Assembly (NCBI RefSeq): GCF_005405165.1
Contig: NZ_BJDN01000004.1
Coordinates: 91,875 to 155,874 of the forward strand
Direction of reading: 5' to 3'
Length of the DNA: 64,000 nucleotides
Source: Loigolactobacillus binensis
Lineage (GTDB): Bacteria > Bacillota > Bacilli > Lactobacillales > Lactobacillaceae
Part shown: positions 24,175 to 42,054 of the stretch, in pieces
Layout of the letters: every line of letters starts with the position of its first letter
Numbering within the stretch: the first letter of the stretch is position 1
Made by a program: the position numbers and the translations under genes
Notes under the pieces: model-generated
What the model was told of the DNA's origin: nothing
What the model saw: the letters and a program-made list of their open reading frames with translations, nothing else
Databases searched by the model: none

Positions 24175-24849
24175 ATGCGCGAAATATTTAGTGAAGAACT
24201 GAAGAATTTGCACGTCCGCTTCTCCGAAATGGGGATGTTAGTCAACGAAGCCGTCTACAATTCGGTGAAGGCCTTTGTCAATCACGATCGGGAACTAGCG
24301 CTAGAAGTGATACAAAATGATGAGGCCATCAATGAGCGCGAAGTTGATATTGAAAAGCGCAGTTTCGAAATGATCGCCTTGCAGCAGCCAGTGACTAGTG
24401 ATCTGCGGCGAATCGTAACGATCATGAAAGCGAGTAGCGACTTAGAACGAATGGGCGATCACGCCGTCAGTATTGCCAAGTCAACGATTCGAGTCAAAGG
24501 CAAGACCCGGGTTCCTGAAATTGAAGAAGATATTGCTAATATGGCGGATATTGTAAAGCAAATGGTGGAAGCAGTGCTGAAGGCTTATGTGCAGAAAAAT
24601 GATCAACAGGCCCGTAAAATTGCCCAGCAGGATCAGCAAGTTAACGCGGCTTTTCAAACGATTTATGATAAATGTATTGCTGAAATGCAACGTGATCCAC
24701 AAACGGTGATCGGCAGTACCGATTATTTATTAGTGGGCACCTATCTAGAACGTGTTGGCGATTACGTTACCAATATTTGTGAGTGGATCGTTTATTTAAA
24801 CACAAATAAGTTGATTGAATTAAATACAAATAATCAAGAAAAGATGTAA
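24175..24849 (+). CDS. phoU: PhoU, phosphate signalling regulator
   Basis: Negative regulator that couples Pst transport to PhoR signalling. Length 224 residues. Seen: two PhoU repeats of three helices, each with the metal-binding pattern (DLRRIVTIMKASSDLERMGDHA and its second-half partner DYLLVGTYLERVGDYVTNICEW). Start ATG 24175 with AGAGGGGG upstream. Last gene of the pst operon. Confidence 0.95.
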   Translation: MREIFSEELKNLHVRFSEMGMLVNEAVYNSVKAFVNHDRELALEVIQNDEAINEREVDIEKRSFEMIALQQPVTSDLRRIVTIMKASSDLERMGDHAVSIAKSTIRVKGKTRVPEIEEDIANMADIVKQMVEAVLKAYVQKNDQQARKIAQQDQQVNAAFQTIYDKCIAEMQRDPQTVIGSTDYLLVGTYLERVGDYVTNICEWIVYLNTNKLIELNTNNQEKM

Positions 24850-25085: not shown

Positions 25086-25129
25086 TAAGTTGTCGTTTTA
25101 AGTTGGATTTAAGTTAATGCCAGTACAAT
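25086..25129 (+). promoter_or_regulatory. Promoter and tandem TTTAAG operator of importer operon 1
   Basis: TAAGTT at 25086, 25099 and 25110. The last two are TTTAAG hexamers 11 bp apart (25097-25102 and 25108-25113), and a -10 TACAAT (25124-25129) starts 10 bp after the second. The block TTTTAAGTTGGRTTTAAGTT also occurs at 33073 before importer operon 2, and the same layout lies on the minus strand at 32906-32938. Confidence 0.7.
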
Positions 25130-25175: not shown

Positions 25176-25994
25176 ATGCAAAGTGAATTAACGCTACCAA
25201 CTAAAGCACATAAAAGCAAGAAGAATAAACCATTTAAGCTACCACCTCGCGTGAAAAAGATGGCATGGTTAACTTTATCCGTTACGGTTGCGGTAGGTGT
25301 CTGGTGGTTGTTGTCCGTGATTCCCAGCACCGCGCAAAGCTTTCCCAATCCAGTCAGTGTGGCGCAAGCCATCGGGACAATGGTTGGCCGCGGTGTTTTG
25401 CTCAGCGATATTGGTTCTAGCCTGTTCTCCGTTGCTTGGGGCTTTATCTTTGGTTTTGTGCTTGCCTTACCCACAGCCATTTTGATGGCATGGTACAAAC
25501 CACTAGAAAATATTATTGGTCCGTGGATTCAATTTATTCGTAGTATTCCGCCGCTGGCTTACGTTCCTTTGGTCGTTGTATCCGCAGGGATCGGGGCTAA
25601 GGCACAGATTATTGTGATCTGTATTGCAACATTCTTAGTCATGACGGTCACGATTTATCAAGGAGTTGTTAATATCGATCCGACTTTGATCAAGGCTGCG
25701 CGCGTTTTAGGTGCTCGTGATCGGGATATTTTTATTCATGTGATCGTTCCGGCAGCTACACCCTATATCATTACGGCAGTGCGTTTAGGTGCGACTACGG
25801 CTTTAACCACGTTGATCGCCGCCGAATCTACTGGTGCCGAAGCTGGTCTAGGAATGCGGATCCAATCACTGAGCCAAACCTTTGATGTGGCACCTATGAT
25901 GCTTTATATCATTATCATCGGGATCATCGGCATTACGTTAGATAAATTCATTCGTCTTTTTGAAAGGAAGGTCACCAAATGGCAGGACAAATAA
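25176..25994 (+). CDS. SsuC/TauC-type ABC importer permease
   Basis: Membrane subunit of a nitrate/sulfonate/taurine-class importer. Length 272 residues: a Lys-rich cytoplasmic N terminus (about 1-30), then about six spans. Seen: SIPPLAYVPLVVVSAGIGAKAQI and the EAA loop KAARVLGARDRDIFIHVIVPAATP, typical of SsuC, TauC and ThiX-like permeases. Start ATG 25176 with GAGGAG. Its 3' end overlaps the ATPase gene by 16 bases. The substrate cannot be read from the permease; the class takes sulfonates, nitrate or pyrimidines. Confidence 0.85.
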   Translation: MQSELTLPTKAHKSKKNKPFKLPPRVKKMAWLTLSVTVAVGVWWLLSVIPSTAQSFPNPVSVAQAIGTMVGRGVLLSDIGSSLFSVAWGFIFGFVLALPTAILMAWYKPLENIIGPWIQFIRSIPPLAYVPLVVVSAGIGAKAQIIVICIATFLVMTVTIYQGVVNIDPTLIKAARVLGARDRDIFIHVIVPAATPYIITAVRLGATTALTTLIAAESTGAEAGLGMRIQSLSQTFDVAPMMLYIIIIGIIGITLDKFIRLFERKVTKWQDK

Positions 25995-26752
25995 AATTAG
26001 CAATTCAGCATATTTCTAAAACTTATCAATCTGAGCGCGGTGAAACAACCGCGCTGGCAGATATTAATTTAAGTATTGATGAAAATGAATTTGTCACGGT
26101 GATCGGGCCTTCTGGTTGTGGTAAATCAACCTTATTAAATATTATTGCGGGTTTGGAGACCGCATCCAGTGGTCAAATTATTTGTGATGATCAGCCGGTC
26201 AAAGGTACTGGTAGTGAACGGGGCGTTGTCTTTCAGCAATACGCGCTGTTTCCGTGGTTGACGGTTCGCCAAAATGTCGCTTTTGGTTTAAAAATGCGTA
26301 AGGATAAGTCCGTAGCTGGACAGGCACGAATCGACCGTTATATTAAAATGGTTGGTTTAAGTGAGTTTGCCGGCAGTTATCCGAAGGAATTATCTGGGGG
26401 GATGCGCCAACGAGTGGCCATTGCCCGAGCGTATGCTGCTGATCCGGCAGTTTTATTAATGGATGAGCCTTTTGGCGCCTTAGATGCACAAACCCGGGGA
26501 CAATTGCAAGAAGAGCTACTGCAAACTTGGGAAAAAGAACAGAAAACCTGTTTCTTTATTACCCATGATGTTGATGAAGCTATTTTATTAGGGCAACGGA
26601 TCGTGATCATGGATTCACATCCGGGTACCGTCAAGGAAGTTGTTCCGGTGAATTTGCCGTATCCACGTAATCAGGAAACCCGCTTAAGTGAGGACTTTTT
26701 GGCCATAAAAAAACACGTTTGGGCGCAAGTTTATCACGCAACCGCAGTTTAG
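25979..26752 (+). CDS. SsuB/TauB-type ABC importer ATPase
   Basis: ATP-binding subunit of importer 1. Length 257 residues. Seen: Walker A GPSGCGKSTLL, Q-loop VVFQQYALFPWLTV, signature LSGGMRQRVAIARA, Walker B VLLMDEPFGALD, switch FITHDVDEA. These fit the NitT/TauT class. Start ATG 25979 with GAAAGGAAG, overlapping the permease gene, so expression is coupled. The binding-protein gene follows after 18 bases. Confidence 0.88.
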   Translation: MAGQIKLAIQHISKTYQSERGETTALADINLSIDENEFVTVIGPSGCGKSTLLNIIAGLETASSGQIICDDQPVKGTGSERGVVFQQYALFPWLTVRQNVAFGLKMRKDKSVAGQARIDRYIKMVGLSEFAGSYPKELSGGMRQRVAIARAYAADPAVLLMDEPFGALDAQTRGQLQEELLQTWEKEQKTCFFITHDVDEAILLGQRIVIMDSHPGTVKEVVPVNLPYPRNQETRLSEDFLAIKKHVWAQVYHATAV

Positions 26753-26770
26753 TTAAGGAGATGATCAGCC

Positions 26771-27796
26771 ATGAAGAAAAAGTTTTGGGGCCTATTGACC
26801 CTGTTATCGTTATTAGCCCTGTTGTTGACCACGCTAGGTGGCACTGGTAACACTAAGGCAGCAAGTAAAACGGAAACGATCAAAATTGGTTATATGAATT
26901 CAGTTAATAGTGTTGGTTTAGTCGCGATCGCCAAGGAGGCCGGCTATTTTAAGGCCCAAGGGTTGAACGTTAAATTAGTTGAATTTTCTGATGGTCCTTC
27001 GATCATCGCCGCCATGAAATCTGGCAGTGTCGATATTGGTGAAATTGGGCCTGGTGCGCATACACAAGTGGCCCAAGGCAACGCTAAAATCGTGATGTTT
27101 GACGGCCTGAGTACTTCGGACAAAATTATTGCCAATAAAAAATCTGGCATTACGTCGATCAAAGATTTAAAAGGCAAAAAAGTGGCTGTTGTTGCGGGAA
27201 CTACCAGCCAAGTCATTTTGGATGCAGCTTTGAAAAAAGCGGGGATGACTGAAAGTGACGTTAAGGTGGTCAGCATGAGCGTTAATTCGATCGTTAATGC
27301 GATGGTCTCTGGAAAAATTGATGCCGCTGCGACTTGGGCACCAGGAACAACTAAAATCAAAGAAAAACTTGGTAGCAATGCGATCACGTTAGCTAAGGAT
27401 AGTGATTTTACAAGTTCAATGCCTTTTACTTGCTCATGGATCGTCACGCCAAGTTACGCTAAGAAAAATAAAGCAACCATCCTGAAGTTTGATAAAGCCA
27501 TGTTACAAGCAATGAATTATCGTAAAAATGGTGGCAAAAATGCGGCCAAATGGATCGCTCAGCAATTGGGCCTTAGTGTCAGTGATGTGAAAAAACAGAT
27601 CACCAGCACGGAAAAGATTTATTCAGCGAAACAAGTAGTTGAATTGATCAATAACGGCGAATTGTTTAAATATTATACGAAGCAACAAAAAAACTTTATT
27701 AAGTTAGGACTTTTAAAGGACAACGGCAAACTGAAAACGGCCAAGAATTACGTTATGACCGATATGATCAAGAAAGCTGCCGCCGCGATCGAATAA
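26771..27796 (+). CDS. TauA/SsuA-like (NMT1-type) substrate-binding protein
   Basis: Extracellular binding protein of importer 1, 341 residues. Seen: signal sequence (about 1-31) without a lipobox cysteine, then the two-lobed NitT/TauT core: TIKIGYMNSVNSVGLVAIA, AGYFKAQGLNV, FSDGPSIIAAMKSGSVDIG and IKDLKGKKVAVVAGTTSQ. Lack of lipobox is unusual for a Gram-positive binding protein; the signal peptide may remain as an uncleaved anchor. Start ATG 26771 with AAGGAG. A terminator follows. Confidence 0.85.
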   Translation: MKKKFWGLLTLLSLLALLLTTLGGTGNTKAASKTETIKIGYMNSVNSVGLVAIAKEAGYFKAQGLNVKLVEFSDGPSIIAAMKSGSVDIGEIGPGAHTQVAQGNAKIVMFDGLSTSDKIIANKKSGITSIKDLKGKKVAVVAGTTSQVILDAALKKAGMTESDVKVVSMSVNSIVNAMVSGKIDAAATWAPGTTKIKEKLGSNAITLAKDSDFTSSMPFTCSWIVTPSYAKKNKATILKFDKAMLQAMNYRKNGGKNAAKWIAQQLGLSVSDVKKQITSTEKIYSAKQVVELINNGELFKYYTKQQKNFIKLGLLKDNGKLKTAKNYVMTDMIKKAAAAIE

Positions 27797-27809
27797 TGGT
27801 TCGATCAAT

Positions 27810-27842
27810 AAAAGGCTATCCAATTGACGGATAGTCTTTTAT
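27810..27842 (+). terminator. Terminator after importer operon 1
   Basis: AAAGGCTATCC / GGATAGTCTTT stem (one wobble), 7-base loop, then T-rich. It separates the importer from the isomerase-aldolase genes. Confidence 0.8.
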
Positions 27843-27894
27843 TTGAATCAGATGTGGTTTCTAAAATAATTAATTAAATGAGGAGTGTTTATTT

Positions 27895-29226
27895 ATGGCT
27901 AATTTATTGTATATTCCCGTTGAACGGCGGTTATTTGATGCCGCCGCTGCTGATAATATTTATACGCAAATGTTGAAAGTTTTACAGCCTTATCACGTGA
28001 CGGTACCGGAACATAATTTAGGAACGCCAGAAGAAATGGGTAATTTTATGACCCGAGTTAATCAGCAACACTTTGATGGCATCATTTTTCATAATACATC
28101 ATTTACTGGTGCTGAGTTTATTGAACAGATCGCTGATTATTTTCCCACAACACCGATTTTACTGATCGCTTCTCGGGAGCCAAGTATCGGTGGCTGGCTG
28201 CGCCTAAATGGGGCCACTGGTTTGATCAGTACCGCGAATTCCTTGATGCGGCGTCACCATCCGTACAGTTATATTTACGGTGATCCAGATGAAACCAAGG
28301 TGCAATACAAGGTCAAAGATTTTTGTCAAAGTGTCAGTTTAAAGGCCAAATTAGCGCAGTTGAAAATTGGGGTAGTTGGTACTTACCCAGTTGGTTTTGC
28401 ATTTGCCGGCGCGAATGAAGCTGCTTTAAAACGGACGTTTGGTACAGAACTGCTACATTACGAAGTGGATACAGCCTTTGCAGACGCCACGGCCTTACCA
28501 GAAACGGCTTATGCTGGCGAATTGGCCTATGCGCAAGCACACATGCGACACCTTGATCCTGAGCTGCCAGAAACCATTAAGTACGTGAAATTTGTGGCCT
28601 TAATGCGGCAATGGCGCCAGCGGGATGGCTTTAATGCCTTGGCCTCTCGTTGTTGGCCAGATTTCTTTGATAAATATGCCGCCGCACCCGGTGCGGTGTG
28701 GTCACAATTATGTGATGAAGGGCTACCGACCGCAATGGAATGTGATATTCATGGGGCTTTGGCCATGTATATTTTACAACAAATGGCCGGAACAGATACG
28801 CCGGTTTATTTAGGTGATATTTCTAGTTTTGAGCCAAGCGACAATACGATCTCTGTTTGGCATGATTATGGTCCCTTTGCGCTGGCCAATCCCAAATATG
28901 GCGTTGAAACCAGCGTCCATCCGAATCGAAAAATGCTGGTCAGTCCGCAGTTTGTTTTGAAGCCTGGCCGAGTGACCTTGCTGCGGGTACACGTTAATGC
29001 GGCTGGTGCTTACGAATTAGTTACTTTAGGGGGCACGGCCCAGGACGCGCCGGCACAATTTGACGGCGTTTCGGGGCGTATTAGGTTGGATACCCCAGTG
29101 GCAAAAGTGTTTGATGATATTGTCCGTAATGGCTACGAACAACATTATGCGTTGGTTTATGGTGACTTCACAGCGACAGTTGCACAATTAGGTGCACTTT
29201 TACAATTACCGATCCATACTTATTAG
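27895..29226 (+). CDS. L-fucose/L-arabinose isomerase-fold protein, putative (sulfo)sugar isomerase
   Basis: Length 443 residues, no signal peptide, so cytosolic. The fold is recognised from the FucI/AraA-like pattern: an N-terminal Rossmann-like half with FDGIIFHNTSFTGAE and AKLQIGVVG-type strands, then TAMECDIHGALAMYILQQM and YLGDISSFEPSDNTISVWHD, which supply the acidic and His metal ligands in this superfamily. It is not a close match to classical FucI, and no fuculokinase or FucA is nearby. With the aldolase 12 bp downstream and a PFK-like kinase and aldehyde dehydrogenase adjacent, I infer an aldose-ketose isomerase for an unusual hexose. Sulfoquinovose is the leading guess. Start ATG 27895 with GAGGAG. 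Confidence 0.65.
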   Translation: MANLLYIPVERRLFDAAAADNIYTQMLKVLQPYHVTVPEHNLGTPEEMGNFMTRVNQQHFDGIIFHNTSFTGAEFIEQIADYFPTTPILLIASREPSIGGWLRLNGATGLISTANSLMRRHHPYSYIYGDPDETKVQYKVKDFCQSVSLKAKLAQLKIGVVGTYPVGFAFAGANEAALKRTFGTELLHYEVDTAFADATALPETAYAGELAYAQAHMRHLDPELPETIKYVKFVALMRQWRQRDGFNALASRCWPDFFDKYAAAPGAVWSQLCDEGLPTAMECDIHGALAMYILQQMAGTDTPVYLGDISSFEPSDNTISVWHDYGPFALANPKYGVETSVHPNRKMLVSPQFVLKPGRVTLLRVHVNAAGAYELVTLGGTAQDAPAQFDGVSGRIRLDTPVAKVFDDIVRNGYEQHYALVYGDFTATVAQLGALLQLPIHTY

Positions 29227-29238
29227 GAGGGGAACCAG

Positions 29239-30102
29239 ATGACCTTAGTAACAACTAAAGAATTAACGCAGTCCGCCCAACGTGGACAATATGCGGTCGG
29301 TGCTTTCAATGTCACTAATATTGCGATGGCGCGTGGTGTTGTTGCGGCTGCAGAGGCCAATTGTTCGCCAGTAATCTTACAGATCGGTGAAAAACAATTG
29401 ACTAATTACGTGCCCTTGGACTTAATGGGAACCGTAATGCTGACTTTGGCACGGCAGGCCAAGGTACCTATCGCTGTGCATTTGGATCACGGTTTCAGTT
29501 ATGAAGTAATCATTCAAGCCTTGAAATTAGGTTTTAGTTCCGTTATGATCGACGCTTCGCAAACTGATTTTGCTACCAATATTGCCCAAACTAAAGCAGT
29601 CGTTCAAGTGGCACATGCGTTAGGGGTATCAGTGGAGGCTGAATTAGGACCAATGAACCGAGAAGGTGGTGGTACAACGGTTGACTATCGCCAGTTAGCA
29701 CAAACCTACACGGATCCCCAAGCGGCTGAGCGCTTTGTGGCCGCTACCGGCACCGATCTCCTGGCGATCGCTTACGGCACCGTACATGGTATTTATTCGC
29801 AAACACCACATTTAAGTTTTGACCGCTTACAGCAAATTGCGCAATTGGTCAGTGTTCCATTAGTTGTTCATGGCGGCTCAGGTTTAGCTGATCAAGATTA
29901 TCGGCGATCAATTGCCAATGGAATCTGTAAAATTAATTACTATTCTAATCTAGCTTATACAGTTGCTAACACGGTTAAGCAGAAATTACAACAAACAACA
30001 ACCCAGGTTTTTATTTCGGATGTTGATAATTGGACGCAGCAATTAGTTCAAGCCGAAGTCAGCGCAAAATTACAGATTTTTGGTTCGGCCGGGCAAGCTT
30101 GA
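29239..30102 (+). CDS. Class II fructose-bisphosphate aldolase-family protein
   Basis: Zinc-dependent class II aldolase of the FbaA/GatY/KbaY family, 287 residues. Seen: metal ligands in AVHLDHG, the catalytic/metal region EAELGPMNREGG, TDLLAIAYGTVHGIY and VHGGSGL. The family cleaves ketose-1-phosphates or ketose-1,6-bisphosphates to DHAP plus an aldehyde. Start ATG 29239 with GGAGGGG, 12 bp after the isomerase gene, so the two are co-transcribed. The pairing suggests a dedicated role (for example 6-sulfofructose-1-phosphate to DHAP and sulfolactaldehyde) rather than the housekeeping aldolase; this is inference. Confidence 0.85.
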   Translation: MTLVTTKELTQSAQRGQYAVGAFNVTNIAMARGVVAAAEANCSPVILQIGEKQLTNYVPLDLMGTVMLTLARQAKVPIAVHLDHGFSYEVIIQALKLGFSSVMIDASQTDFATNIAQTKAVVQVAHALGVSVEAELGPMNREGGGTTVDYRQLAQTYTDPQAAERFVAATGTDLLAIAYGTVHGIYSQTPHLSFDRLQQIAQLVSVPLVVHGGSGLADQDYRRSIANGICKINYYSNLAYTVANTVKQKLQQTTTQVFISDVDNWTQQLVQAEVSAKLQIFGSAGQA

Positions 30103-30132
30103 TTTAGTGATAATTACATTTACCAGGGAATT

Positions 30133-30175
30133 AAAAGGCCCACCGTTAAAGTTAATTTAGCGGCGGGCCTTTTTG
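30133..30175 (+). terminator. Bidirectional terminator between aldolase and PFK-like genes
   Basis: An 18-base arm starting AAAAGGCCCACCG pairs with TTTAGCGGCGGGCCTTTT (one mismatch, one wobble), with T-run and A-run, between convergent genes. Confidence 0.88.
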
Positions 30176-30219
30176 CTACCTTAATTAAGTTCGGGACAGC
30201 CATACATAGCTAGTAAACT

Positions 30220-31368
30220 TTAAGTAAAGTTCACGATCGTTGGCAGCGGGGTGTCGGCCAAACGGTTACTTAGCCAGTCAATATATTCGGCGGTGACGCC
30301 ATTACCAGCTTGATTGATAAATTCGGCCGGCAATTGGCGTGTGTGCTGGGCAACAGTCGTTAGTGGGATCAAGGGGTATTGCGCCTGTTCCGCTGTACTA
30401 ATACCGACCATTTGATCAGTTGCACCTGCACAAACGGCCGCAACGGCACGTTGGCCGGCGTTACTGGCCTCGGTGCGATCGCGCAAGCTCTGTTGGGTGA
30501 TGCTAGCGCGGCCAGCTAAACCAGGTTTTTCACTACGCGCTTTAATGCCTAGTTCTTTTACTACTTGTTCGGCTAGATAACTACCAACTTCGCCAAAATA
30601 AACGGCGCGGCCGGCTTGAAAACGAGCAGGCACGATTGGCTGTCCGGAAGCCTGCTTTAGGCCTTCCGCGACGACAACGATCACTTCATGTTTTTGGGCG
30701 TAGATTCGTTGCACATCTTGGAGAAATTGTTGCAGGGAAAAAGGTCGTTCGGGAACGTAAATCAGATCAGGAGCTAGCCGACCGCCTGGCTGATCGGCTA
30801 AGGCCGCTGCCGCTGCTAACCAACCAGCATCGCGACCCATTAATTCAATAATACAAACATGAATCGGTAAGCTGACGACGTCGGCAGCAATTTCGCGCAC
30901 TGTTTGGCGAACATAATTTGCGGCACTGAGAAAGCCAGGCGCGTGATCAAGACCATTTAAATCGTTGTCGATGGTTTTGGGAATGCCGATCACTTTAATA
31001 GTGGTCGCAGCGGCCTGACAAGCTTGTGCTAAATGATGACAGGTAGTCATCGTGCCGTTCCCGCCAGTCAGCAACACATAATCAATCGCCTGTTTTTCAA
31101 GTTGAATGACTAGATCGGCGTAATCTTTGGCTGTCAACGGTGTGCGTGAGGAGCCGATCGCACTTCCAGGTGAGTGTAATAGCGCCGCAATTTCTTGTGG
31201 CGAACGGTTACTAAGCTCAATAAAATCGGCGGTCACTAAGCCAGCGATGCCGTTACGAGCCCCTAAAACCTGCAAATGCTGTGCTTGGCCCGCCTTGATC
31301 ACGCCGTATAACGAACTATTTAAAACGGCGGTCGGGCCGCCACCGTGGATCACTAACAAACGTTGCAT
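30220..31368 (-). CDS. 6-phosphofructokinase-family kinase (PFKA superfamily)
   Basis: Length 382 residues. Seen: HGGGPTAVLNSSLYG at the N terminus, GARNGIAGL, nucleotide-site TGGNGTM, catalytic PKTIDNDL, substrate-binding MGRDAGW and VVVAEGLK. The Gly in GGNGTM (ATP-type) together with Lys in PKTIDND (pyrophosphate-type) mixes the markers of the two PFK classes, so the phosphate donor is open. It is longer than housekeeping PfkA (about 320). It is transcribed with the aldehyde dehydrogenase upstream (gap 104 bp) from the promoter at 32906-32938. Start ATG with GGAGG. By context it could phosphorylate 6-sulfofructose or another ketose for the neighbouring aldolase. Confidence 0.85.
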   Translation of the reverse strand: MQRLLVIHGGGPTAVLNSSLYGVIKAGQAQHLQVLGARNGIAGLVTADFIELSNRSPQEIAALLHSPGSAIGSSRTPLTAKDYADLVIQLEKQAIDYVLLTGGNGTMTTCHHLAQACQAAATTIKVIGIPKTIDNDLNGLDHAPGFLSAANYVRQTVREIAADVVSLPIHVCIIELMGRDAGWLAAAAALADQPGGRLAPDLIYVPERPFSLQQFLQDVQRIYAQKHEVIVVVAEGLKQASGQPIVPARFQAGRAVYFGEVGSYLAEQVVKELGIKARSEKPGLAGRASITQQSLRDRTEASNAGQRAVAAVCAGATDQMVGISTAEQAQYPLIPLTTVAQHTRQLPAEFINQAGNGVTAEYIDWLSNRLADTPLPTIVNFT

Positions 31369-31472
31369 GGTAAAGCCTCCTCATCCAGACTATAGCCTGA
31401 AATTTTTGTGGTTAATATTTTTTAATGTTATTACGGTTAAAATTCAGTTCGCCGTATTTTTAGCTCCTTATT

Positions 31473-32849
31473 TTAGTAAGCAATAACTTTCTGGTTGGCA
31501 AATTCAAATAATGCCTGTTCACTCATTTCGCGGCCGTAACCAGAGTTTTTGACGCCGCCAAATGGTAATTCGGGTTGCGCAACGGCCTGCTGATTAATAA
31601 AAATTTGGCCGGTTTCCAGCTGGGCGGCTATTGCTTGTGCATGTTTAGTGGCGCCGAAAACGGTGCCTGCTAACCCGTATTGTGAGTGGTTGGCCAGTGC
31701 AATTGCCGCTTGGTCAGAAGCCACAATGTGTAATTGGCCCACAGGTCCAAATAGTTCTTGATCAAAGATCGGGTTTGTGGCAGTGATGTCGCCTAATAAA
31801 ACTGGTTTGAAAAAATAACCGGGTTGATCAGGTACGAGGCCACCTGGGACTAAAACGGTGGCCCCGTGTGCAATGGCCAAATCAACTTGAACTTGGATTC
31901 GTTGTTGAACGGTCTGCGAGGCCAAGGGTGCTAATGTGGTCGTTTCATCCCGTGGATCGCCGATTTTTTGCTGGGCAAAGGCAGCTTTAACGGCGGCCGT
32001 AAAAGCAGGGGCAACTGCTTGGTGGACGATGAAACGCTTAGCGGATACACAAACTTGGCCGGCATTGCGTAGGCGTGAGCCGACTGCTGCAGCGGCGGCA
32101 GCTGGTACATCTGCATCAGCTAACACGATAAAAGCATCATTGCCACCTAACTCTAACGTTGATTTCGTTAGTGCTTGTGCGGCCTCACTGGCAACTGCCC
32201 GACCAGCACGCGTTGAGCCGGTTAAGGCTACCCCTTGGACTCGTTGATCAGCGATCACTGTGGCGGCCTGTTCGTCCGTTAAAAATAAGTTTTGTAAAGC
32301 GGCAGGCTCGATCCCGGCAGCCTGAACCATTTCAGTGAACAATAAGGCACAATCCGCAACACTGGAAGCGTGTTTGAGAATAACTGGGTTACCTAAAATA
32401 AAATTAGGCGCAAAAACCCGCATAACTTGTGTATAGGGGAAATTCCACGGTTCGATGGCTAGTACAATACCGGTGGGCTCGTAACTAATTTGAGCTTGCT
32501 CGACACCTTGATATTGGCGAATATGCGGTTGTAAGGCCGCAGCACCATGATCGGCATAGTAGTTAGCAACCCCGATGCTGCCATTGATTTCGGCGCGACT
32601 TTCTCGTAGTAACTTGCCCATATTAGCCGTTGCCGTAGTGGCCAAGCGAGTTGCATTCTGTTCAAAAATCGTGGCCAAACGCTGTAATTGGCGCGTGCGA
32701 GCCTGGACGCCAGCAAAGCCTAATTGCTGAGTCGTTTGGTAATAAGCATTACCGACAGCTAAAGCCTTATTGATCGTTGCGGTGGTTGCTGTTGTATACG
32801 TAGCAATGATTTCTTCAGTATAAGGATCAATCGTTTGATAATTTGCCAT
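31473..32849 (-). CDS. NAD(P)-dependent aldehyde dehydrogenase (GabD-like)
   Basis: Length 458 residues from ATG at 32847-32849, with GGAGGAAT upstream; longer in-frame starts lack an SD. Seen: AIEPWNFPY, ALTGSTRAGRAVAS (cofactor), catalytic Glu in LELGGND and catalytic Cys in AGQVCVSAKR, and the C-terminal ELPFGGVKNSGYGRE. This is the succinate-semialdehyde dehydrogenase subgroup, which also contains sulfolactaldehyde and lactaldehyde dehydrogenases. As first gene of the minus-strand operon with the PFK-like kinase, it may oxidise the aldehyde released by the class II aldolase. Confidence 0.88.
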   Translation of the reverse strand: MANYQTIDPYTEEIIATYTTATTATINKALAVGNAYYQTTQQLGFAGVQARTRQLQRLATIFEQNATRLATTATANMGKLLRESRAEINGSIGVANYYADHGAAALQPHIRQYQGVEQAQISYEPTGIVLAIEPWNFPYTQVMRVFAPNFILGNPVILKHASSVADCALLFTEMVQAAGIEPAALQNLFLTDEQAATVIADQRVQGVALTGSTRAGRAVASEAAQALTKSTLELGGNDAFIVLADADVPAAAAAAVGSRLRNAGQVCVSAKRFIVHQAVAPAFTAAVKAAFAQQKIGDPRDETTTLAPLASQTVQQRIQVQVDLAIAHGATVLVPGGLVPDQPGYFFKPVLLGDITATNPIFDQELFGPVGQLHIVASDQAAIALANHSQYGLAGTVFGATKHAQAIAAQLETGQIFINQQAVAQPELPFGGVKNSGYGREMSEQALFEFANQKVIAY

Positions 32850-32905
32850 AATGTATTCCTCCATAATAGTGTCGGCCAAAAATTCGGCTAGCTTTAATAC
32901 CAAAC

Positions 32906-32938
32906 AGTATACAAAGGCTACCTCAAACCAACCTTAAA
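32906..32938 (-). promoter_or_regulatory. Promoter and tandem TTTAAG-like operator of the dehydrogenase-kinase operon
   Basis: Read on the minus strand: TTTAAG (32938-32933), then 11 bp on TTTGAG (32927-32922), a 10-bp gap, and -10 TATACT (32911-32906). The geometry is identical to the promoters at 25097-25129 and 33074-33106. Confidence 0.65.
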
Positions 32939-33073
32939 ATAGTTTTAGAGATCTGACCGGCAACTATTTAATGGCAACAGGGCGAAAAAAGTAAGTTGGA
33001 TTGGTGCGACGTATTATGACTTAGATTTTCATATTTAATGAACTAAAAAATCTGGTGTAAAAAAATAATTACT

Positions 33074-33106
33074 TTTAAGTTGGGTTTAAGTTTATCCAGC
33101 TATGCT
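33074..33106 (+). promoter_or_regulatory. Promoter and tandem TTTAAG operator of importer operon 2
   Basis: TTTAAG at 33074-33079 and 33085-33090 (11 bp apart), 10-bp gap, -10 TATGCT (33101-33106). It shares the block TTTTAAGTTGGRTTTAAGTT with the operon 1 promoter. A further TAAGTTGGATT lies at 32992-33002. Confidence 0.7.
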
Positions 33107-33138
33107 TATTTTCAATTAATCAATGGAGATGAGTAAAA

Positions 33139-33954
33139 ATGGAAAACGTAGCGGCATTTGGTGCAACGCGTCCCCATAAACGACAACACTTAACTTGGCA
33201 AAAATTTTTACCGTGGCTGATCCCCGTTATGCTAGTCGGTTTCTGGCAGCTAGCGGTCAGCGCAAATTGGATCAGCAGTAGCTTATTACCGTCACCGCTC
33301 GCCGTTATTCAAGATGGGATCGCACTTTGGCAAACAGGTGAATTACCTAAAAATATCAGTATCAGTCTTTATCGTGCGACTGCCGGTTTTGTCATCGGCG
33401 GCAGTATTGGTTTCTTACTTGGTTTAGTCAACGGACTTTCTAAAGTTACCCGAGCACTATTCGATTCTTCGATTCAAATGTTGCGCAATATTCCGCATTT
33501 ATCGTTGATCCCAGTGGTGATCATTGCCTTAGGTATCGGTGAGACCGCGAAAATTTCGTTGGTCGCCGTTGGGGTGATGTTCCCGATCTACATTAATACG
33601 TTCCACGGTATTACTAGTATTGATCCAGAATTATTAGAAATGGGGCATGCGTATGGATTATCCAAACGGGCTCTGTTAACAAAAATTGTTTTTCCTGGCG
33701 CTTTGCCGACGATTTTAGTGGGTGTTCGCTACGCTTTAGGTGTGATGTGGACCACTTTGATTGTGGCCGAAACGATTTCTTCTAGCTCTGGTATTGGTTA
33801 TATGGCAACTAATGCGCAAGAATTCATGAATATGGATACCGTGTTATTATGTATCGTCATTTATGCCTTATTAGGTAAATTCTCTGATTTAGTGGCTAAG
33901 GCGCTGGAAAATATTTGCTTAGACTGGCAGAAAGCGGGGCGCATTGAACAATGA
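33139..33954 (+). CDS. SsuC-type ABC importer permease (operon 2)
   Basis: Membrane subunit of the second NitT/TauT-class importer. Length 271 residues, about six spans. Seen: LLPSPLAVIQDGIALWQTGELPKNI-type opening region, RNIPHLSLIPVVIIALGIGE and the EAA loop EMGHAYGLSKRALLTKIVFP, typical of SsuC. Start ATG 33139 after a GGAGATGAG SD. Its stop overlaps the ATPase start by 4 bases. Confidence 0.87.
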   Translation: MENVAAFGATRPHKRQHLTWQKFLPWLIPVMLVGFWQLAVSANWISSSLLPSPLAVIQDGIALWQTGELPKNISISLYRATAGFVIGGSIGFLLGLVNGLSKVTRALFDSSIQMLRNIPHLSLIPVVIIALGIGETAKISLVAVGVMFPIYINTFHGITSIDPELLEMGHAYGLSKRALLTKIVFPGALPTILVGVRYALGVMWTTLIVAETISSSSGIGYMATNAQEFMNMDTVLLCIVIYALLGKFSDLVAKALENICLDWQKAGRIEQ

Positions 33955-34673
33955 TCAAACCATTATTAACCCTAGAGCAAGTTGGTAAGAATTATGGAAC
34001 TAAAGTGGCCTTACACAACGTTAATTTTAATATTTACCCCGGCGAGTTCATGGCCTTAGTCGGGATGAGTGGCGGTGGCAAAAGTACGATTCTTCGCTTG
34101 ATCGCTCAGCTAGAACAACCAACCGCCGGGCAGATTCAATTTAATGATCCAGCGACAACGATGCGAGTCATGTTTCAAAATGATCGCCTTTTACCATGGA
34201 TGACTAATTTAGAAAATGTTTCCTTTAAAAGTAGTGATAAACAGGAACAACAACGTGCGCTGGCCATGTTAAATGAAGTTGGGTTGGCCGATTTTGCGGC
34301 TAGTTATCCCGGCCAGTTATCTGGTGGGCAAAAGCAACGTTTGGCGTTAGCGCGAGCATTAATGGCCAAGCCACAATTACTGTTGTTAGACGAACCATTA
34401 GGTGCCTTAGACGCATTGACGCGACGTAAAATGCAGGACTTTATTGCCGCGATCTGTGCCAAGCAACACTTAACGACTTTGTTGATCACACATGATGTAA
34501 CGGAAGCTGCTCGAATGGCGGACCGGATATTGGTTGTTAAAAATGGAACTAATGTTTATGAAGCAGATGGTGCTAAAAATCAAGATGAAGCAACGATCGC
34601 AACCGTGGCAGAAGAAGTTCTTAACGTGATTTTACACGCGCCGGCAACTGCGGCTAGTGTTGAGGGGAGATGA
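33951..34673 (+). CDS. SsuB-type ABC importer ATPase (operon 2)
   Basis: ATPase subunit of importer 2, 240 residues. Seen: Walker A GMSGGGKSTILR, Q-loop RVMFQNDRLLPWM, signature LSGGQKQRLALARA, Walker B LLLLDEPLGALD, switch LITHDVTEAARMADR, all of the SsuB type. It overlaps the permease gene upstream and the acyltransferase gene downstream by 4 bases each, so the five genes of this operon are translated as one coupled set. Confidence 0.9.
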   Translation: MIKPLLTLEQVGKNYGTKVALHNVNFNIYPGEFMALVGMSGGGKSTILRLIAQLEQPTAGQIQFNDPATTMRVMFQNDRLLPWMTNLENVSFKSSDKQEQQRALAMLNEVGLADFAASYPGQLSGGQKQRLALARALMAKPQLLLLDEPLGALDALTRRKMQDFIAAICAKQHLTTLLITHDVTEAARMADRILVVKNGTNVYEADGAKNQDEATIATVAEEVLNVILHAPATAASVEGR

Positions 34674-35899
34674 CAACACTGACGAATACCCAAGTAACAG
34701 CTAAGAAGAAACGCCCTTACTTATATGAAGTTGATTTTATGCGGATCTTCTTTATTTTCGGGGTGTTATTAAACCATACGACTACAACGTTTGCGGCCCA
34801 AATGACCAACGCAACTGGTTGGCCCCATCTGCTTTTACTCAGTACGCATTTACTGATCCATTTCACCCGGATGGGCTTCATGTTTATGACGGGGTTAGTT
34901 TTAACTTTAAATTATTATCACCGTGACAATTGGCCAAGCTTTTTTAAAAAGCGTTTTGCTGGTTCTGGTTGGCCGTATTTATTATGGAATTTGGTTTTAA
35001 TGACTTTGGCCACCTTAGTCAGTGTACCTGGTTTTTCTTGGACTAATTTTGGGTCCACTTATCTAGATGCGTTGCTCCACGGGGATCAATTCTATATGTA
35101 TTATATTTTAGTCACTTTACAATTGTATCTTTTGTTTCCATTCATCGTTAAATTATTTAAGCGGTGGACTAAAGGCCACAATAAAATTCTGTTGATCAGT
35201 TTTTTAATTCAATTAGGATTGATGTTTGCCATTAAATATGGACTGCCACACATTGATGATAGTCATTGGCTTTGGTGGTTCCGTGCGTATGGTGTTAATG
35301 TCTTCACTTATCAATTTTATTTTATTTTTGGTGCGTATACGTCCTTACATTATCAAGAAGTCAATGCGTTTATCCAACGCCACATTAAGGCAATCGCTAC
35401 AGTGACGATCACTTTAGGTGTGGGGACCGTTGCCTACTATGCTTGGAACCGTGGCGTTCTTGGCCTATCCCACACGGCCGCCGTTTCGCCACATCAGCCT
35501 TACATGTTGATTTATGACAGTATGATGATCATCTTTGTCTTTTGGATCGGTAAGGCCTACGCTTACTGGCGGCAACATGGCATTTGGCCTTGGTTTGAAA
35601 AATTTGTTCGGAATGGTGCCAAAGTATCTTTTGGCATCTATTTAGACCAAATGATCGGCTTAACTATTTTAAGTTGGTTGTTAAGCTTCGTCAGTGTTCC
35701 TGATTGGGTATTTTTAATTTTGATCCCAGTCGGTTATCTATTGGTTGTCGCGATCTCCTTTGGTATTGCGTGGTTCTGTTATCGCGTACCGCCATTTGGT
35801 ATTATGATCGGTCGCCCGCAAGTGCATTTGTTTAAAAAGAGAGGAATGGTGCTTCATGACCAAACTAACAAATCTATTATCACAACAACTCAAAAATAA
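34670..35899 (+). CDS. Membrane acyltransferase, acyltransferase-3 family
   Basis: Integral membrane protein of 409 residues with about ten spans. The N-terminal motif YEVDFMRIFFIFGVLLNHTT carries the Arg and His typical of acyltransferase-3 (OafA/NolL-like) proteins, which move acyl groups to sugars, lipids or peptides on or across the membrane. ATG 34670 overlaps the ATPase stop, and its own 3' end overlaps the next gene by 44 bases. Its place inside an importer operon, beside an acyl-activating enzyme, is unusual. Acceptor and donor are unknown; acylation of the imported compound or of an envelope glycan are both possible. Confidence 0.8.
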   Translation: MTTLTNTQVTAKKKRPYLYEVDFMRIFFIFGVLLNHTTTTFAAQMTNATGWPHLLLLSTHLLIHFTRMGFMFMTGLVLTLNYYHRDNWPSFFKKRFAGSGWPYLLWNLVLMTLATLVSVPGFSWTNFGSTYLDALLHGDQFYMYYILVTLQLYLLFPFIVKLFKRWTKGHNKILLISFLIQLGLMFAIKYGLPHIDDSHWLWWFRAYGVNVFTYQFYFIFGAYTSLHYQEVNAFIQRHIKAIATVTITLGVGTVAYYAWNRGVLGLSHTAAVSPHQPYMLIYDSMMIIFVFWIGKAYAYWRQHGIWPWFEKFVRNGAKVSFGIYLDQMIGLTILSWLLSFVSVPDWVFLILIPVGYLLVVAISFGIAWFCYRVPPFGIMIGRPQVHLFKKRGMVLHDQTNKSIITTTQK

Positions 35900-37388
35900 T
35901 TTAGATCAGCCTGTCATTAAAGATGAAAACTTAGGAATTTGGTTCACTGGTTTAGATCTACAAGATGACGTTCATCAGTTACGTAATGCTTTTGTGGCCA
36001 ACAAGTTAGGGTATGGTGATCAAATTCTAGTCTGTCTACCTAATTCCGCTGTTTTCCCAGTGATCAATCAGGCAGCCTGGGAATTAGGAATCATTGTTCA
36101 TCCAATTTCACCAACAACCCCGATCGCGGAATTACGGGCCGATTGGCGAGCACGGCACTACGCGGGAATTTTACTTGCACCGGCTTTAGCGGTGGCTTTA
36201 GCGGGAGCTCCGTTTGTGGCTAATGACCTACATTTGCACACGGTAGCCGAATTGCCGTTTTTAGTCGATCGCCAGCAAATCGCGGGCCGTCTTACTACCA
36301 GCACCTATTTGCCGCAAGAAGATGATCTCGGCTTGATCCTAAATACGTCTGGGACCACCGGCAAGCCTAAGCGTGTCGGGCTGACCCACGCCATGTTGGT
36401 CAACGCAGCGCAGAATGATATTGTCAGCAATCATATGACTGCCGCTGATGTAGCGATGATCACCATGCCGATGTTTCACATCAACGCGCAAGTAATGTCC
36501 ACGTTATCCACGCGCTTAGCTGGCGGAAAGATTCTGGTTACACCGAAATTCAGTGCCAGCCGGTTCTGGCAGCAGGTCAAAGATAACGGCGTCACGTGGG
36601 TGTCGGTCGTTCCTACGATCATAACGTTCTTGTTGTTAAATGATAATGCCAATCGAGTTTATCGGGAAAATGCGGAAGATATTCATTTACGTTACGTCCG
36701 CTCATCATCTTTTGCTTTACCAGAAGATAAATTGCGCGCTTTTCAGGATAATTTCAACACCTTAGTGATCGAAGGCTACGGCATGACCGAAGCCGCTAGT
36801 CAATGTACGATCAATCCTTTTGATGCACCTAAGATTGGTTCAGCGGGTAAAGCTTTCGGAACCGAACTCAGTATTTTAGTGGATGGCGTGATCACCACCG
36901 AAGCTAATGTGCTCGGTGAAATTGTCATCAAAGGCGACCATGTGATCACGCAGTATATGGATCCTAACCCGGATTCCTTTAAAGATGGGTGGTTCCTGAC
37001 TGGTGATCTTGGCTATCTAGATGAGGAGGGCTATTTATTTGTTAAGGGTCGTAGCAAGGAAATTATCAGTCGTGGCGGTGAAAAAGTTGCGCCAGCAGCG
37101 GTGGAAAACGTGTTAAATGAACTGGCTTTTATCGAACAACTTTCGGTGATTGGTATGCCTGATGAGCTGTATGGTGAAGAAGTAACTGCCGTGGTGATCA
37201 GTACGACACCCGGTTTACATGAAGCCGACCAGCGCCAACAAATTTTGGATTATGCACAAGATCATTTGGCCAAATATGAATCCCCAACGCGGGTCGAATT
37301 TGTCCGTGAATTTCCGCGCAATATGACCGGTAAGGTTTTACGGCCGCAATTACGGGAACAACTATTAACAGCAGGTGTGGCTAGATGA
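35856..37388 (+). CDS. AMP-forming acyl-CoA synthetase/ligase
   Basis: Adenylate-forming enzyme, 510 residues. Seen: P-loop NTSGTTGKPKRVGLTH, the A5 motif EGYGMTEAASQ, FLTGDLGYLDEEGYLFVKGRSKEII and the C-terminal catalytic Lys in NMTGKVLRPQL. The order and text resemble the short-chain/oxalate-CoA-ligase (Pcs60/AAE3) branch more than long-chain FadD, but the acid substrate cannot be read by eye. Start ATG 35856 lies inside the acyltransferase gene (44-base overlap) and its stop overlaps the next gene by 4 bases. A role linked to the imported substrate or to acyl supply for the acyltransferase is inferred. Confidence 0.85.
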   Translation: MTKLTNLLSQQLKNNLDQPVIKDENLGIWFTGLDLQDDVHQLRNAFVANKLGYGDQILVCLPNSAVFPVINQAAWELGIIVHPISPTTPIAELRADWRARHYAGILLAPALAVALAGAPFVANDLHLHTVAELPFLVDRQQIAGRLTTSTYLPQEDDLGLILNTSGTTGKPKRVGLTHAMLVNAAQNDIVSNHMTAADVAMITMPMFHINAQVMSTLSTRLAGGKILVTPKFSASRFWQQVKDNGVTWVSVVPTIITFLLLNDNANRVYRENAEDIHLRYVRSSSFALPEDKLRAFQDNFNTLVIEGYGMTEAASQCTINPFDAPKIGSAGKAFGTELSILVDGVITTEANVLGEIVIKGDHVITQYMDPNPDSFKDGWFLTGDLGYLDEEGYLFVKGRSKEIISRGGEKVAPAAVENVLNELAFIEQLSVIGMPDELYGEEVTAVVISTTPGLHEADQRQQILDYAQDHLAKYESPTRVEFVREFPRNMTGKVLRPQLREQLLTAGVAR

Positions 37389-38350
37389 AAAAGCACCGTT
37401 GGAAGCTAGGCTTATTATTAATTGCGTTGATCGCGTGGCTCGGTGTTGCCTTTTATGGCTATCGCCAGACGGACTCCAGCCACAGTAACTTAACGACAGT
37501 GACCATTGGCTATCAAAAAGGTGATCCAGTGGACATTTCACAACAACGCGGCGAATTGGCCAAAAAAATGAAGGCAAAAGGTTATAAAGTTGTTTTTAAG
37601 GAATTTTCTGACGGTACGGCGCTGATCACTGCCTTGAAATCAGGTAATATCAACTACGCCCGACTTGGTGATACACCGCCAGTCACGGCGCAGGCCAGCG
37701 GAATGAATTTGGTTTATGTTGCTGCCGGTGCCTCCAAAGAAAATGGTTCTGGTATTTTGGTTAAAAAAGGCGCCAGTATCAACAGCTTAAAGGATCTAAA
37801 AGGAAAACGGATCGCTTATACTAAAGGAACTTCCGCGCAGTTTTTGATCCTCCAGGCTTTGAAAAAAGCTGGCCTAACAACTGACGATGTGACGTTGGTT
37901 AATATGGATCAATCGGCGGCCAGCGTGGCCTTTGCAAAGGGTAAAGTTGACGCGTGGGTTACTTGGGATCCGTTCACTGCTACGGCGGAAGTCGAGCAAA
38001 ACGCTAAATTATTAGTTGATGGCACTGGCCTGTCGAAGAATCGTGATTTTGTGGTTTCCACCAGCAGCTATGCCAAGGCTCATACCGCAGTCAGTAAATA
38101 TTTAGTTAGTTATTTGGCGGACGATATGCAATGGGCAACTAAGCATCAGAATAAATTGATCACGATGATGAGCAAGTCACTACATCTATCAAAAACGGTG
38201 ATCAAAAAGCAAGTTGGTCGCCGAACCTTCTCCATGGGAAAAGTCACCAATTCAATCGTGAAGGAACAACAAAAAATTGCTGACGTTTTCTATAATGCTG
38301 GTTTGATCGATAAAAAGATCAAAGTTAAGGATGCGTTAGTCGATCAATAG
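37385..38350 (+). CDS. SsuA-like sulfonate-type substrate-binding protein (operon 2)
   Basis: Binding protein of importer 2, 321 residues. Seen: an N-terminal hydrophobic segment (about 8-24) with no lipobox, so probably membrane-anchored, then VTIGYQKGD, the hallmark opening of aliphatic-sulfonate-binding SsuA, FSDGTALITALKSGNINYARLGDTPP, and SLKDLKGKRIAYTKGTSAQF. The resemblance to SsuA is stronger than for the operon 1 protein. It is the last gene of the coupled five-gene operon; a terminator follows. Confidence 0.87.
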   Translation: MKKHRWKLGLLLIALIAWLGVAFYGYRQTDSSHSNLTTVTIGYQKGDPVDISQQRGELAKKMKAKGYKVVFKEFSDGTALITALKSGNINYARLGDTPPVTAQASGMNLVYVAAGASKENGSGILVKKGASINSLKDLKGKRIAYTKGTSAQFLILQALKKAGLTTDDVTLVNMDQSAASVAFAKGKVDAWVTWDPFTATAEVEQNAKLLVDGTGLSKNRDFVVSTSSYAKAHTAVSKYLVSYLADDMQWATKHQNKLITMMSKSLHLSKTVIKKQVGRRTFSMGKVTNSIVKEQQKIADVFYNAGLIDKKIKVKDALVDQ

Positions 38351-41607: not shown

Positions 41608-42054
41608 ATGAGTATTCAACAACCAACCTTTATGCAAAATTGTTTGTATTTTACGGCCAATCATTTGCAACGTGAACTGGAGCAACTAGCTGCTAAAAGC
41701 TTTGCCAGCACAAAAATGGCCCCAGCCTATACCTATTTAACTTTGATGATCGAGGCTAATCCTGGCATTACGATGACTGAATTGGCATTAGCATTTGATT
41801 ATGAACAATCAACGTTATCACGCTTATTGCAGAAATTAGGTGGACAAAAATGGCTGCGTAAGCAACGGCAGGGTCATCAAACGCAACTTTATTTAACGAC
41901 AACGGCCAATACGATTTTGCCGACGATGCACCGCGCGTTAAATGATTTTCGTCAACGATCTGATCAATTAATGGGTGGTCGATCCCAAAAATTGGCTGTA
42001 GCTCACGCGATGGCTCGGGCAACGCAACAGGCTAAGGCGGTGGCCTATGAGTAA
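41608..42054 (+). CDS. MarR-family transcriptional regulator
   Basis: Winged-helix regulator, 148 residues from ATG 41608 (SD TGGAGATGG); a longer in-frame start at 41581 lies inside the palindrome and downstream -10 region and is rejected. Seen: helix-turn-helix ITMTELALAFDYEQSTLSRLLQKL and wing KWLRKQRQGHQTQLYLTTTAN. It very likely represses its own operon through the palindrome at 41569-41596. Overlaps the MFS gene by 8 bases; the ligand may be the MFS substrate. Confidence 0.88.
   Translation: MSIQQPTFMQNCLYFTANHLQRELEQLAAKSFASTKMAPAYTYLTLMIEANPGITMTELALAFDYEQSTLSRLLQKLGGQKWLRKQRQGHQTQLYLTTTANTILPTMHRALNDFRQRSDQLMGGRSQKLAVAHAMARATQQAKAVAYE

Follow-up and report, generated by a model that had tools for sequence, protein, structure and literature searches.

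A candidate sulfosugar degradation island of the Embden-Meyerhof-Parnas type in Loigolactobacillus binensis

Class II aldolases acting on sulfofructose phosphate and a transaldolase route (sulfo-TAL) of Firmicutes are reportedly the subject of published work. Among the sulfoglycolytic routes of the Embden-Meyerhof-Parnas (EMP) type, sulfo-EMP2 (SqvD, SqiK and SqiA; Bacillus urumqiensis and Megamonas rupellensis) is a chain of a PF02952-type isomerase, a PF00365 kinase and a PF01116 aldolase, whose aerobic members continue by oxidation to sulfolactate, according to the passages of the source used here (PMC9594981). The present study concerns a 64,000-nucleotide stretch of the Loigolactobacillus binensis genome (contig NZ_BJDN01000004.1, hereafter the window), in which a gene island encodes the same chain of enzyme types, the PF00365 kinase and PF01116 aldolase genes lying beside the isomerase gene, and in which the same oxidation is predicted. 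A sulfo-EMP variant of Arthrobacter (AK01 and AK04), as outlined in the part of its report drawn on here, likewise has no sulfoquinovosidase candidate, uses ATP-binding cassette (ABC) transporters and a GabD-type dehydrogenase, and has the sulfolactate output predicted for the island (PMC8873060); it differs in having homologues of YihS, YihV and YihT, which belong to other families than the enzymes in the window.

A preliminary description of this DNA had proposed a candidate sulfosugar island with an EMP-type sulfoglycolytic chain, based on an isomerase, a phosphofructokinase (PFK)-superfamily kinase, a class II aldolase and a GabD-like dehydrogenase within 13 kb. The genes are intact open reading frames (ORFs) throughout 25176-38350 and belong to the families named, and the proposal as a whole was largely supported by the SftI match of the isomerase, the clade of the dehydrogenase and the linkage of the genes. 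We consider it probable that the island encodes a complete EMP-type route for sulfoquinovose with sulfolactate as the end product. Free sulfoquinovose, a plant sulfosugar, would be brought in by an SsuABC-class importer (importer 1), and the SftI/SqvD-type isomerase would, judging by its family, convert it to 6-deoxy-6-sulfofructose. The PF00365 kinase would then form sulfofructose-1-phosphate, with ATP use judged from a GGNG motif, and the PF01116 aldolase would split this into dihydroxyacetone phosphate, passed to glycolysis, and sulfolactaldehyde. The dehydrogenase, as its clade suggests, would oxidize sulfolactaldehyde to sulfolactate, which would leave the cell via an exporter. These assignments, from substrate, reactions and importer cargo to ATP use and end product, are predictions from sequence, drawn from the genes, families, linkage, clades and promoter layout described below.

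Isomerase and dehydrogenase

The single NCBIfam match of the isomerase is the model of SftI sulfoquinovose isomerase (NF048012; 378.9 bits, residues 2-443). The comparison with SqvD/SftI types suggested in the preliminary description thus gave a full-length match, though below the curated cut-off, and the kin of the protein are the isomerases of sulfo-TAL operons. Relatives were sampled in 397 Lactobacillaceae genomes, with a wider set of 398 genomes of the class and some counts made on 46 genomes. Isomerase matches at E 1e-3 were found in 42 of the 397 genomes; 21 of these reach 2.3e-97 or better (identity 39-100%), and the remaining 21, with 2e-9 to 2e-17, identity of 21-26% and frames of 463-508 residues, are therefore more distant isomerases. 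Beyond the window, Loigolactobacillus jiayinensis and a Lacticaseibacillus genome (G276), the gene occurs in 20 distinct loci, all 20 with a transaldolase homologue and, in varying completeness, with a glycoside hydrolase of family 31 (GH31), a dehydrogenase, a GPH-type transporter and an SqvB-like protein. Identity to the isomerases of all these sulfo-TAL loci is 38-58%, and to those of Paucilactobacillus, Secundilactobacillus, Ligilactobacillus and Liquorilactobacillus operons 54-58%. The sulfo-TAL loci (L003-L016, L073 and L075-L079) lie in these four genera, in Levilactobacillus and in another Loigolactobacillus (G123); the operons L009, L012 and L016 contain broken genes.

The candidate metal ligands Glu, Asp and His of the FucI/AraA fold are conserved in the isomerase, and E282, D308 and H417 are invariant across 55 homologues. 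Its AlphaFold model (mean predicted local distance difference test score 95.5) has the AraA/FucI fold. A sequence search of the PDB gave no match, and in a fold search with the model AraA and FucI were the sole clear matches, so the fold comparison put forward in the preliminary description neither supports nor refutes its proposal. A protein resembling phosphoglucose isomerase (PF00342, 55 bits; L157:4697-6040) stands in G276 in line with homologues of importer 1 and the dehydrogenase, and may represent a second sugar isomerase, belonging to a related pathway.

Concerning the dehydrogenase, the ORF was listed as 31473-32903, and a GGAGG-preceded ATG at 32849 gives 458 aa, the length of the L. 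jiayinensis orthologue. In a tree of 29 rows, it groups with the L. jiayinensis (G170) and G276 rows (support 100/100), and then, with seven further rows (six distinct) from lactobacillus sulfo-TAL operons, forms a ten-row set (99/98); the sulfo-TAL dehydrogenases in this tree come from lactobacillus operons only and are themselves uncharacterised. Sixteen dehydrogenases sampled from other genome places, two of them from the own genome, all fall outside the ten-row set. The presence of an aldehyde dehydrogenase had been taken to suggest an unusual C3 aldehyde, which agrees with this grouping, and because of the grouping sulfolactate is the predicted product. Apart from L073, all sulfo-TAL loci (19 of 20) have the gene, so oxidation to sulfolactate looks usual in lactobacilli.

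The dehydrogenase has Arg at both sulfonate-binding positions of RlGabD (171/289) and the oxyanion tripeptide Trp-Asn-Phe. According to the part of the report cited, the two Arg positions of RlGabD were proposed to bind sulfonate, and human succinate semialdehyde dehydrogenase has Arg at the equivalent places (PMC10599462). The pair thus does not discriminate. Arg/Arg was found in the window, in nine aligned lactobacillus sulfo-TAL dehydrogenases and in two Bacilli clusters (L090 and L094), while the published His/Asn signature of Bacillus occurs in L083, L085, L086 and L088. Identity of the window dehydrogenase to four from Bacilli clusters (L085 and L086 with His/Asn, L090 and L094 with Arg/Arg) is 25-28%.

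Kinase and aldolase

The kinase matches PRK14072 (372 bits), as does the kinase of cluster L085, and contains the motifs GGNGT and PKTIDND; GGNGT is also found in the kinases of sulfo-EMP2 clusters. The NCBIfam name, pyrophosphate-dependent kinase, was set aside, as the pyrophosphate enzymes 3k2q and 3hno have GGGDS where the window kinase has GGNGT; Gly at this position goes with the use of ATP. At the equivalents of what we take to be Arg162 and His249 of Escherichia coli PfkA, aligned via the genome's own PfkA, the kinase carries His and Leu; both PfkA residues are likewise missing from the sulfo-EMP2 kinases. This loss fits a substrate without a 6-phosphate and proves nothing by itself. 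The genome has a separate PfkA-like gene elsewhere; therefore, the island kinase is an additional enzyme and not the housekeeping PFK, which the preliminary description had named as the case that would speak against its proposal.

In several of the 398 genomes of the class, genes for an isomerase, a kinase and an aldolase stand in tandem in clusters of the sulfo-EMP2 type (L085, L086, L089, L090, L091 and L094), and enzymes of such Bacilli clusters stand in for SqiK and SqiA in the trees; characterised SqiK is absent from the kinase tree, and SqiA is presumably the protein of PDB entry 8q57. The window kinase falls among PFKs of Companilactobacillus and others, in a clade of 18 rows (100/100); the seven kinases of Bacilli isomerase-kinase clusters all lie outside it. 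Most other rows of this tree were taken from the best 120 of 7642 matches of the window kinase, so it shows only that the sulfo-EMP2 kinases are not the nearest kin. At E 1e-60, the kinase was found in 4 of 397 genomes.

The aldolase was found at E 1e-80 in 8 of 397 genomes; a PF00596-type aldolase had been searched for first and is not this gene. In its tree, where again most other rows came from best matches, a 17-row clade (100/99) excludes all seven aldolases of Bacilli isomerase-aldolase clusters. Within a six-row clade (100/100), the window enzyme stands with those of L. jiayinensis (L002), G147, G276 (L072), P0186 and P0201. The isomerase gene lies beside the aldolase gene in L002 and L072 and on apparently the same contig in P0186 and P0201; the G147 locus is decayed. 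The comparison with sulfofructose enzymes suggested earlier therefore gave a divided result, since the families are the same (PF00365 and PF01116) but both trees place the enzymes apart from those of Bacilli sulfo-EMP2 clusters. For this reason, the kinase and aldolase look as if they were recruited separately from the known sulfo-EMP2 enzymes.

A relative of the kinase (54% identity) was observed in a cluster of a Companilactobacillus genome (G195, L112:7788-17555), which is not among the genomes with an isomerase match. This cluster also encodes a class II aldolase, an aldose epimerase, a TIM-like protein, a lactate-racemase-like protein, two TauE/SafE-family proteins and a GPH transporter with 54% identity to its sulfo-TAL counterpart, and may represent a further sulfosugar pathway.

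Extent of the island, importers and promoter repeat

The order of twelve genes, up to and including importer 2, is the same in L. jiayinensis (G170, locus L002; identity 73-90%). In G276, the aldolase, the adjacent isomerase and the importer 1 binding protein share one contig, and the permease, ATPase, phosphoglucose isomerase-like gene and dehydrogenase (67% identity) lie on another, adjoining an importer 2 operon. This synteny and retained linkage indicate that the island is more than a chance arrangement. The relative G123 has the importer 2 operon directly after phoU, without the island there, and in G033, G068 and G097 the gene after phoU is a homologue of window gene 39094, with neither the importer 2 operon nor the island between. 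From these neighbourhoods, the island proper is placed at about 25.1-32.9 kb (Table 1), with the kinase gene convergent to the aldolase gene and in a separate operon. The G147 locus (L108:1-4217) is a decayed copy in which kinase and aldolase are kept, the binding protein and isomerase between aldolase and ATPase are missing, and the ATPase is fragmented. No Rfam match was obtained at gathering scores in 24.7-38.6 kb.

Table 1. Features of the island and its flanks, in window positions
Feature	Position	Strand	Basis or remark
phoU, other flank of island	24175-24849		
Tandem repeat TTTAAG-N5-TTTAAG, exact at 25097-25113, -10-like TACAAT 10 nt downstream	25095..25118	+	before importer 1/isomerase/aldolase; conserved in L002 and G147 (L108)
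Importer 1 permease (PF00528, NitT/TauT/SsuC class)	25176..25994	+	profile matches
Importer 1 ATPase	25979..26752	+	profile matches
Importer 1 substrate-binding protein (SsuA/TauA-like), predicted sulfosugar binder	26771..27796	+	profile matches, solved relatives
Predicted sulfoquinovose isomerase (SftI/SqvD homologue)	27895..29226	+	NCBIfam, alignment, AlphaFold model
Class II aldolase (PF01116), predicted sulfofructose-1-phosphate aldolase	29239..30102	+	Pfam, tree
PFK-superfamily kinase (PF00365), predicted ATP-dependent sulfofructose kinase	30220..31368	-	Pfam, NCBIfam, motifs, tree
Aldehyde dehydrogenase (PF00171), predicted sulfolactaldehyde dehydrogenase, 458 aa	31473..32849	-	Pfam, tree, alignment
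Degenerate tandem repeat, TATACT 10 nt downstream	32917..32940	-	before dehydrogenase/kinase; third-best window site, 18.8 bits; similar repeat in L002
Tandem repeat TTTAAG-N5-TTTAAG, exact at 33074-33090, TATGCT 10 nt downstream	33072..33095	+	before importer 2; conserved in L002, G123 and G191
Importer 2 neighbour operon (SsuC, SsuB and SsuA types, acyltransferase, AMP-ligase)	33139..38350	+	profile matches
Acyltransferase (membrane), inside importer 2 operon	34670-35899		
AMP-ligase, inside importer 2 operon	35856-37388		

The preliminary description had the genes flanked by two SsuABC-class importers; both sets are present, but importer 2, as G123 shows, is not part of the island. Its operon was first favoured as a pathway part, as the ligase gene stands beside the isomerase in L076/L077 and, with the acyltransferase, near it in L007. 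This was dropped because the ligase was found at E 1e-80 in 33 of the 46 genomes, isomerase-negative ones included, in addition to the G123 arrangement. The importer 2 operon is a backbone neighbour older than the island. The membrane acyltransferase and AMP-ligase (34670-37388) sit inside this SsuABC-type operon, and the best PDB matches of the ligase are oxalate-CoA ligases.

Importer 1 is part of the island: its binding protein was found at E 1e-30 in 4 of the 46 genomes (G000, the genome of the window, G170, G276 and, as a 58% relative, G147), three of which also have the isomerase and the window-type aldolase. The 18 sulfo-TAL genomes in this set are all without it, so that importer 1 may replace the GPH transporter. 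The binding proteins of both importers match SsuA and TauA models, and the solved relatives of the importer 1 protein include taurine- and aliphatic-sulfonate-binding proteins; its predicted cargo is a sulfosugar.

Of the 56 non-overlapping predicted proteins of the window, 52 were scanned, 50 with Pfam and two (the ligase and the importer 2 binding protein) with NCBIfam only; the other four belong to the pst/phoU operon. The earlier observations that the window holds neither a GH31 sulfoquinovosidase nor a recognised sulfolactate exporter agree with tblastn and with these scans, respectively, the latter including a search for TauE/SafE proteins. Lactobacillus queries of sulfoquinovosidase, transaldolase, SqvB and the GPH-type transporter gave no tblastn match in the window at E 1e-3, and the one GH31 found in the genome covers 34% of the yihQ query, with 27% identity. 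The single major facilitator superfamily protein among those scanned (42047-43294) has a homologue in G123 and is thus assigned to the backbone.

The tandem repeat TTTAAG-N5-TTTAAG was found by aligning the upstream regions of the two Loigolactobacillus species. Two exact copies occur in the window against 0.015 expected, and a looser search gave 9 sites against 2.2. The rarity of the two exact copies is judged from the former comparison, because the matrix derives from six Loigolactobacillus sites and necessarily gives both copies high scores. With a hand-picked operon-first gene per locus and L073 left out, sites of at least 10 bits, a threshold chosen after the outcome of a first version of the test, precede 8 of 19 sulfo-TAL operons versus 3 of 130 other upstream regions (Fisher p 2e-6; rank test 4e-5; reached by 0 of 300 column-permuted matrices), the p-values being optimistic because species of one genus are not independent. 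Other thresholds gave 9/19 vs 6/130 (8 bits), 5 vs 1 (12 bits) and 4 vs 0 (14 bits). In the first version, with all 40 sulfo genes that count as first in their transcription unit, the effect was weaker (Mann-Whitney p 0.06). The eight sites lie in 4 of 5 Secundilactobacillus, 4 of 6 Levilactobacillus and none of 8 other loci (L011 just missed, with 9.7 bits), and the G276 loci L072 and L157 have no repeat site above 13 bits. By eye, TANNNT follows 10 nt downstream in 15 of 18 listed sites; of the 12 that had no part in building the matrix, 9 have it. The only Levilactobacillus site listed (L078) is without it.

In streptococcal CiaR promoters, the same repeat is described with a -10 box 10 nt downstream, and in the passages of the paper cited CiaRH is reported only from streptococci (PMC3091779). 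The repeat at 25095..25118 is predicted to act as the activator box of the unit formed by importer 1, isomerase and aldolase. The OmpR-type regulator of the window (16957-17658) differs from CiaR in its recognition helix, as compared by eye. A Pho box was considered, as a two-component pair and the pst/phoU operon adjoin, and rejected, the region upstream of pstS having by eye a different TTTACA repeat; the window contains no CcpA cre consensus. Good TTTAAG tandem repeats with a -10 box 10 nt downstream and no clear nearby gene were also observed at L012:12819, L012:13942 and L005:12273, possibly as small RNA promoters, as for CiaR.

Alternative readings and relation to known systems

Several findings weigh against a sulfoquinovose route of this kind. 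The isomerase stays below the NF048012 cut-off (378.9 vs 700 bits), which the isomerase of L085 exceeds (820 bits); a lactobacillus isomerase inside a complete sulfo-TAL operon scores a comparable 412.8 bits. Identity of the kinase and aldolase to their counterparts in Bacilli sulfo-EMP2 clusters is only 29-40%, the aldolases sister to the six-row clade sit with FGGY kinases and a different transporter, and G276 has homologues of the isomerase, aldolase, importer and dehydrogenase without this kinase type, its best candidate being a housekeeping-type PFK (31% identity). The cluster holds no YihQ sulfoquinovosidase or SqvB mutarotase by tblastn, and the scanned proteins include no TauE/SafE-family protein or GH31. 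The ten-row set leaves out three Levilactobacillus sulfo-TAL dehydrogenases; they join in a 14-row set (100/98), which also holds one dehydrogenase from elsewhere in G329; the other 15 sampled from other places are outside it. The promoter repeat also precedes importer 2 in G123 and G191 without such an island beside it, so it does not mark sulfosugar genes alone. Finally, reviews, in the parts consulted, tie the oxidative branch and sulfolactate output to aerobes and would have a fermenter reduce sulfolactaldehyde to dihydroxypropanesulfonate (PMC9594981, PMC12890257), which makes the oxidative branch in lactobacilli unexpected.

NitT/TauT-type binding proteins take many small anions, and this, together with the missed SftI cut-off and the FGGY-kinase-linked sister aldolases, could mean that the true substrate is an unusual ketose or aldose without a sulfonate group and that the sulfonate annotations reflect family resemblance only. 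We regard this as improbable, as the dehydrogenase groups with sulfo-TAL enzymes, the isomerase is kin to those of sulfo-TAL operons, the promoter layout is shared with some of these operons, and the binding protein is limited, among the 46 genomes, to the four with the island or its remains. A different sulfosugar such as sulfofucose is marginally more plausible, though still unlikely: the dehydrogenase points to a C3 sulfonate aldehyde only, the aldolase lies outside the SqiA-type clade, but against this reading the isomerase is kin to those of operons with a PRK10426-type GH31, which points to sulfoquinovose. PRK10426 is a model that we take to be YihQ, and the GH31 of L003 passes its cut-off (922 vs 553 bits). 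A route for sulfofucose of the EMP kind, with sulfotagatose as intermediate, was considered in print, though it was not found to operate in the organism concerned, as far as the cited part of that paper goes (PMC12421959). Least credible, to the point of being very improbable, is that the island mainly serves sulfur or sulfonate scavenging with the sugar enzymes as a side function. The two SsuABC-class importers with their matches to SsuA and TauA models, and the solved taurine- and sulfonate-binding relatives in the case of importer 1, would suit small sulfonates, but profile scans revealed no desulfonating enzyme among the 12 genes, and importer 1 co-occurs with the isomerase and aldolase rather than with the far more widespread importer 2 ligase.

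Sulfolipid is abundant in fermented plant foods and silage, and lactobacilli are the dominant bacteria there. If sulfoquinovose breakdown to sulfolactate holds, a food-relevant bacterial group would join the sulfosugar cycle. It would also mean that kinase and aldolase were recruited repeatedly for one reaction chain, and it would pose a redox puzzle, as a fermenter oxidizing sulfolactaldehyde must dispose of extra NADH. A literature search, limited, judged mainly by titles and prone to miss words such as Secundilactobacillus, found no paper on sulfoquinovose breakdown by lactobacilli. A Ligilactobacillus variant enriched with sulfoquinovose was judged an unlikely degrader in the portion of the report cited (PMC12330013).

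Compared with the lactobacillus sulfo-TAL operons, the island has a homologous isomerase, a dehydrogenase of the same group and the promoter box found in most Secundilactobacillus and Levilactobacillus loci, whereas those operons have a transaldolase homologue and mostly a GH31 and a GPH-type transporter where the window has a kinase, an aldolase and an ABC importer. From sulfo-EMP2 it differs in a kinase and aldolase outside the clades of the Bacilli isomerase-kinase-aldolase clusters, in the Arg/Arg dehydrogenase, in being without YihQ or SqvB and in its SsuABC-class importer. Whether this amounts to a third, independently assembled sulfo-EMP pathway, with an isomerase and dehydrogenase shared with sulfo-TAL, a fresh kinase and aldolase, an Ssu/Tau-class ABC importer and a CiaR-type activator shared with the sulfo-TAL operons of other genera, is evenly balanced in our judgement. 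The island likely works like sulfo-EMP2, but because of the descent of its kinase and aldolase we do not count it as part of that system.

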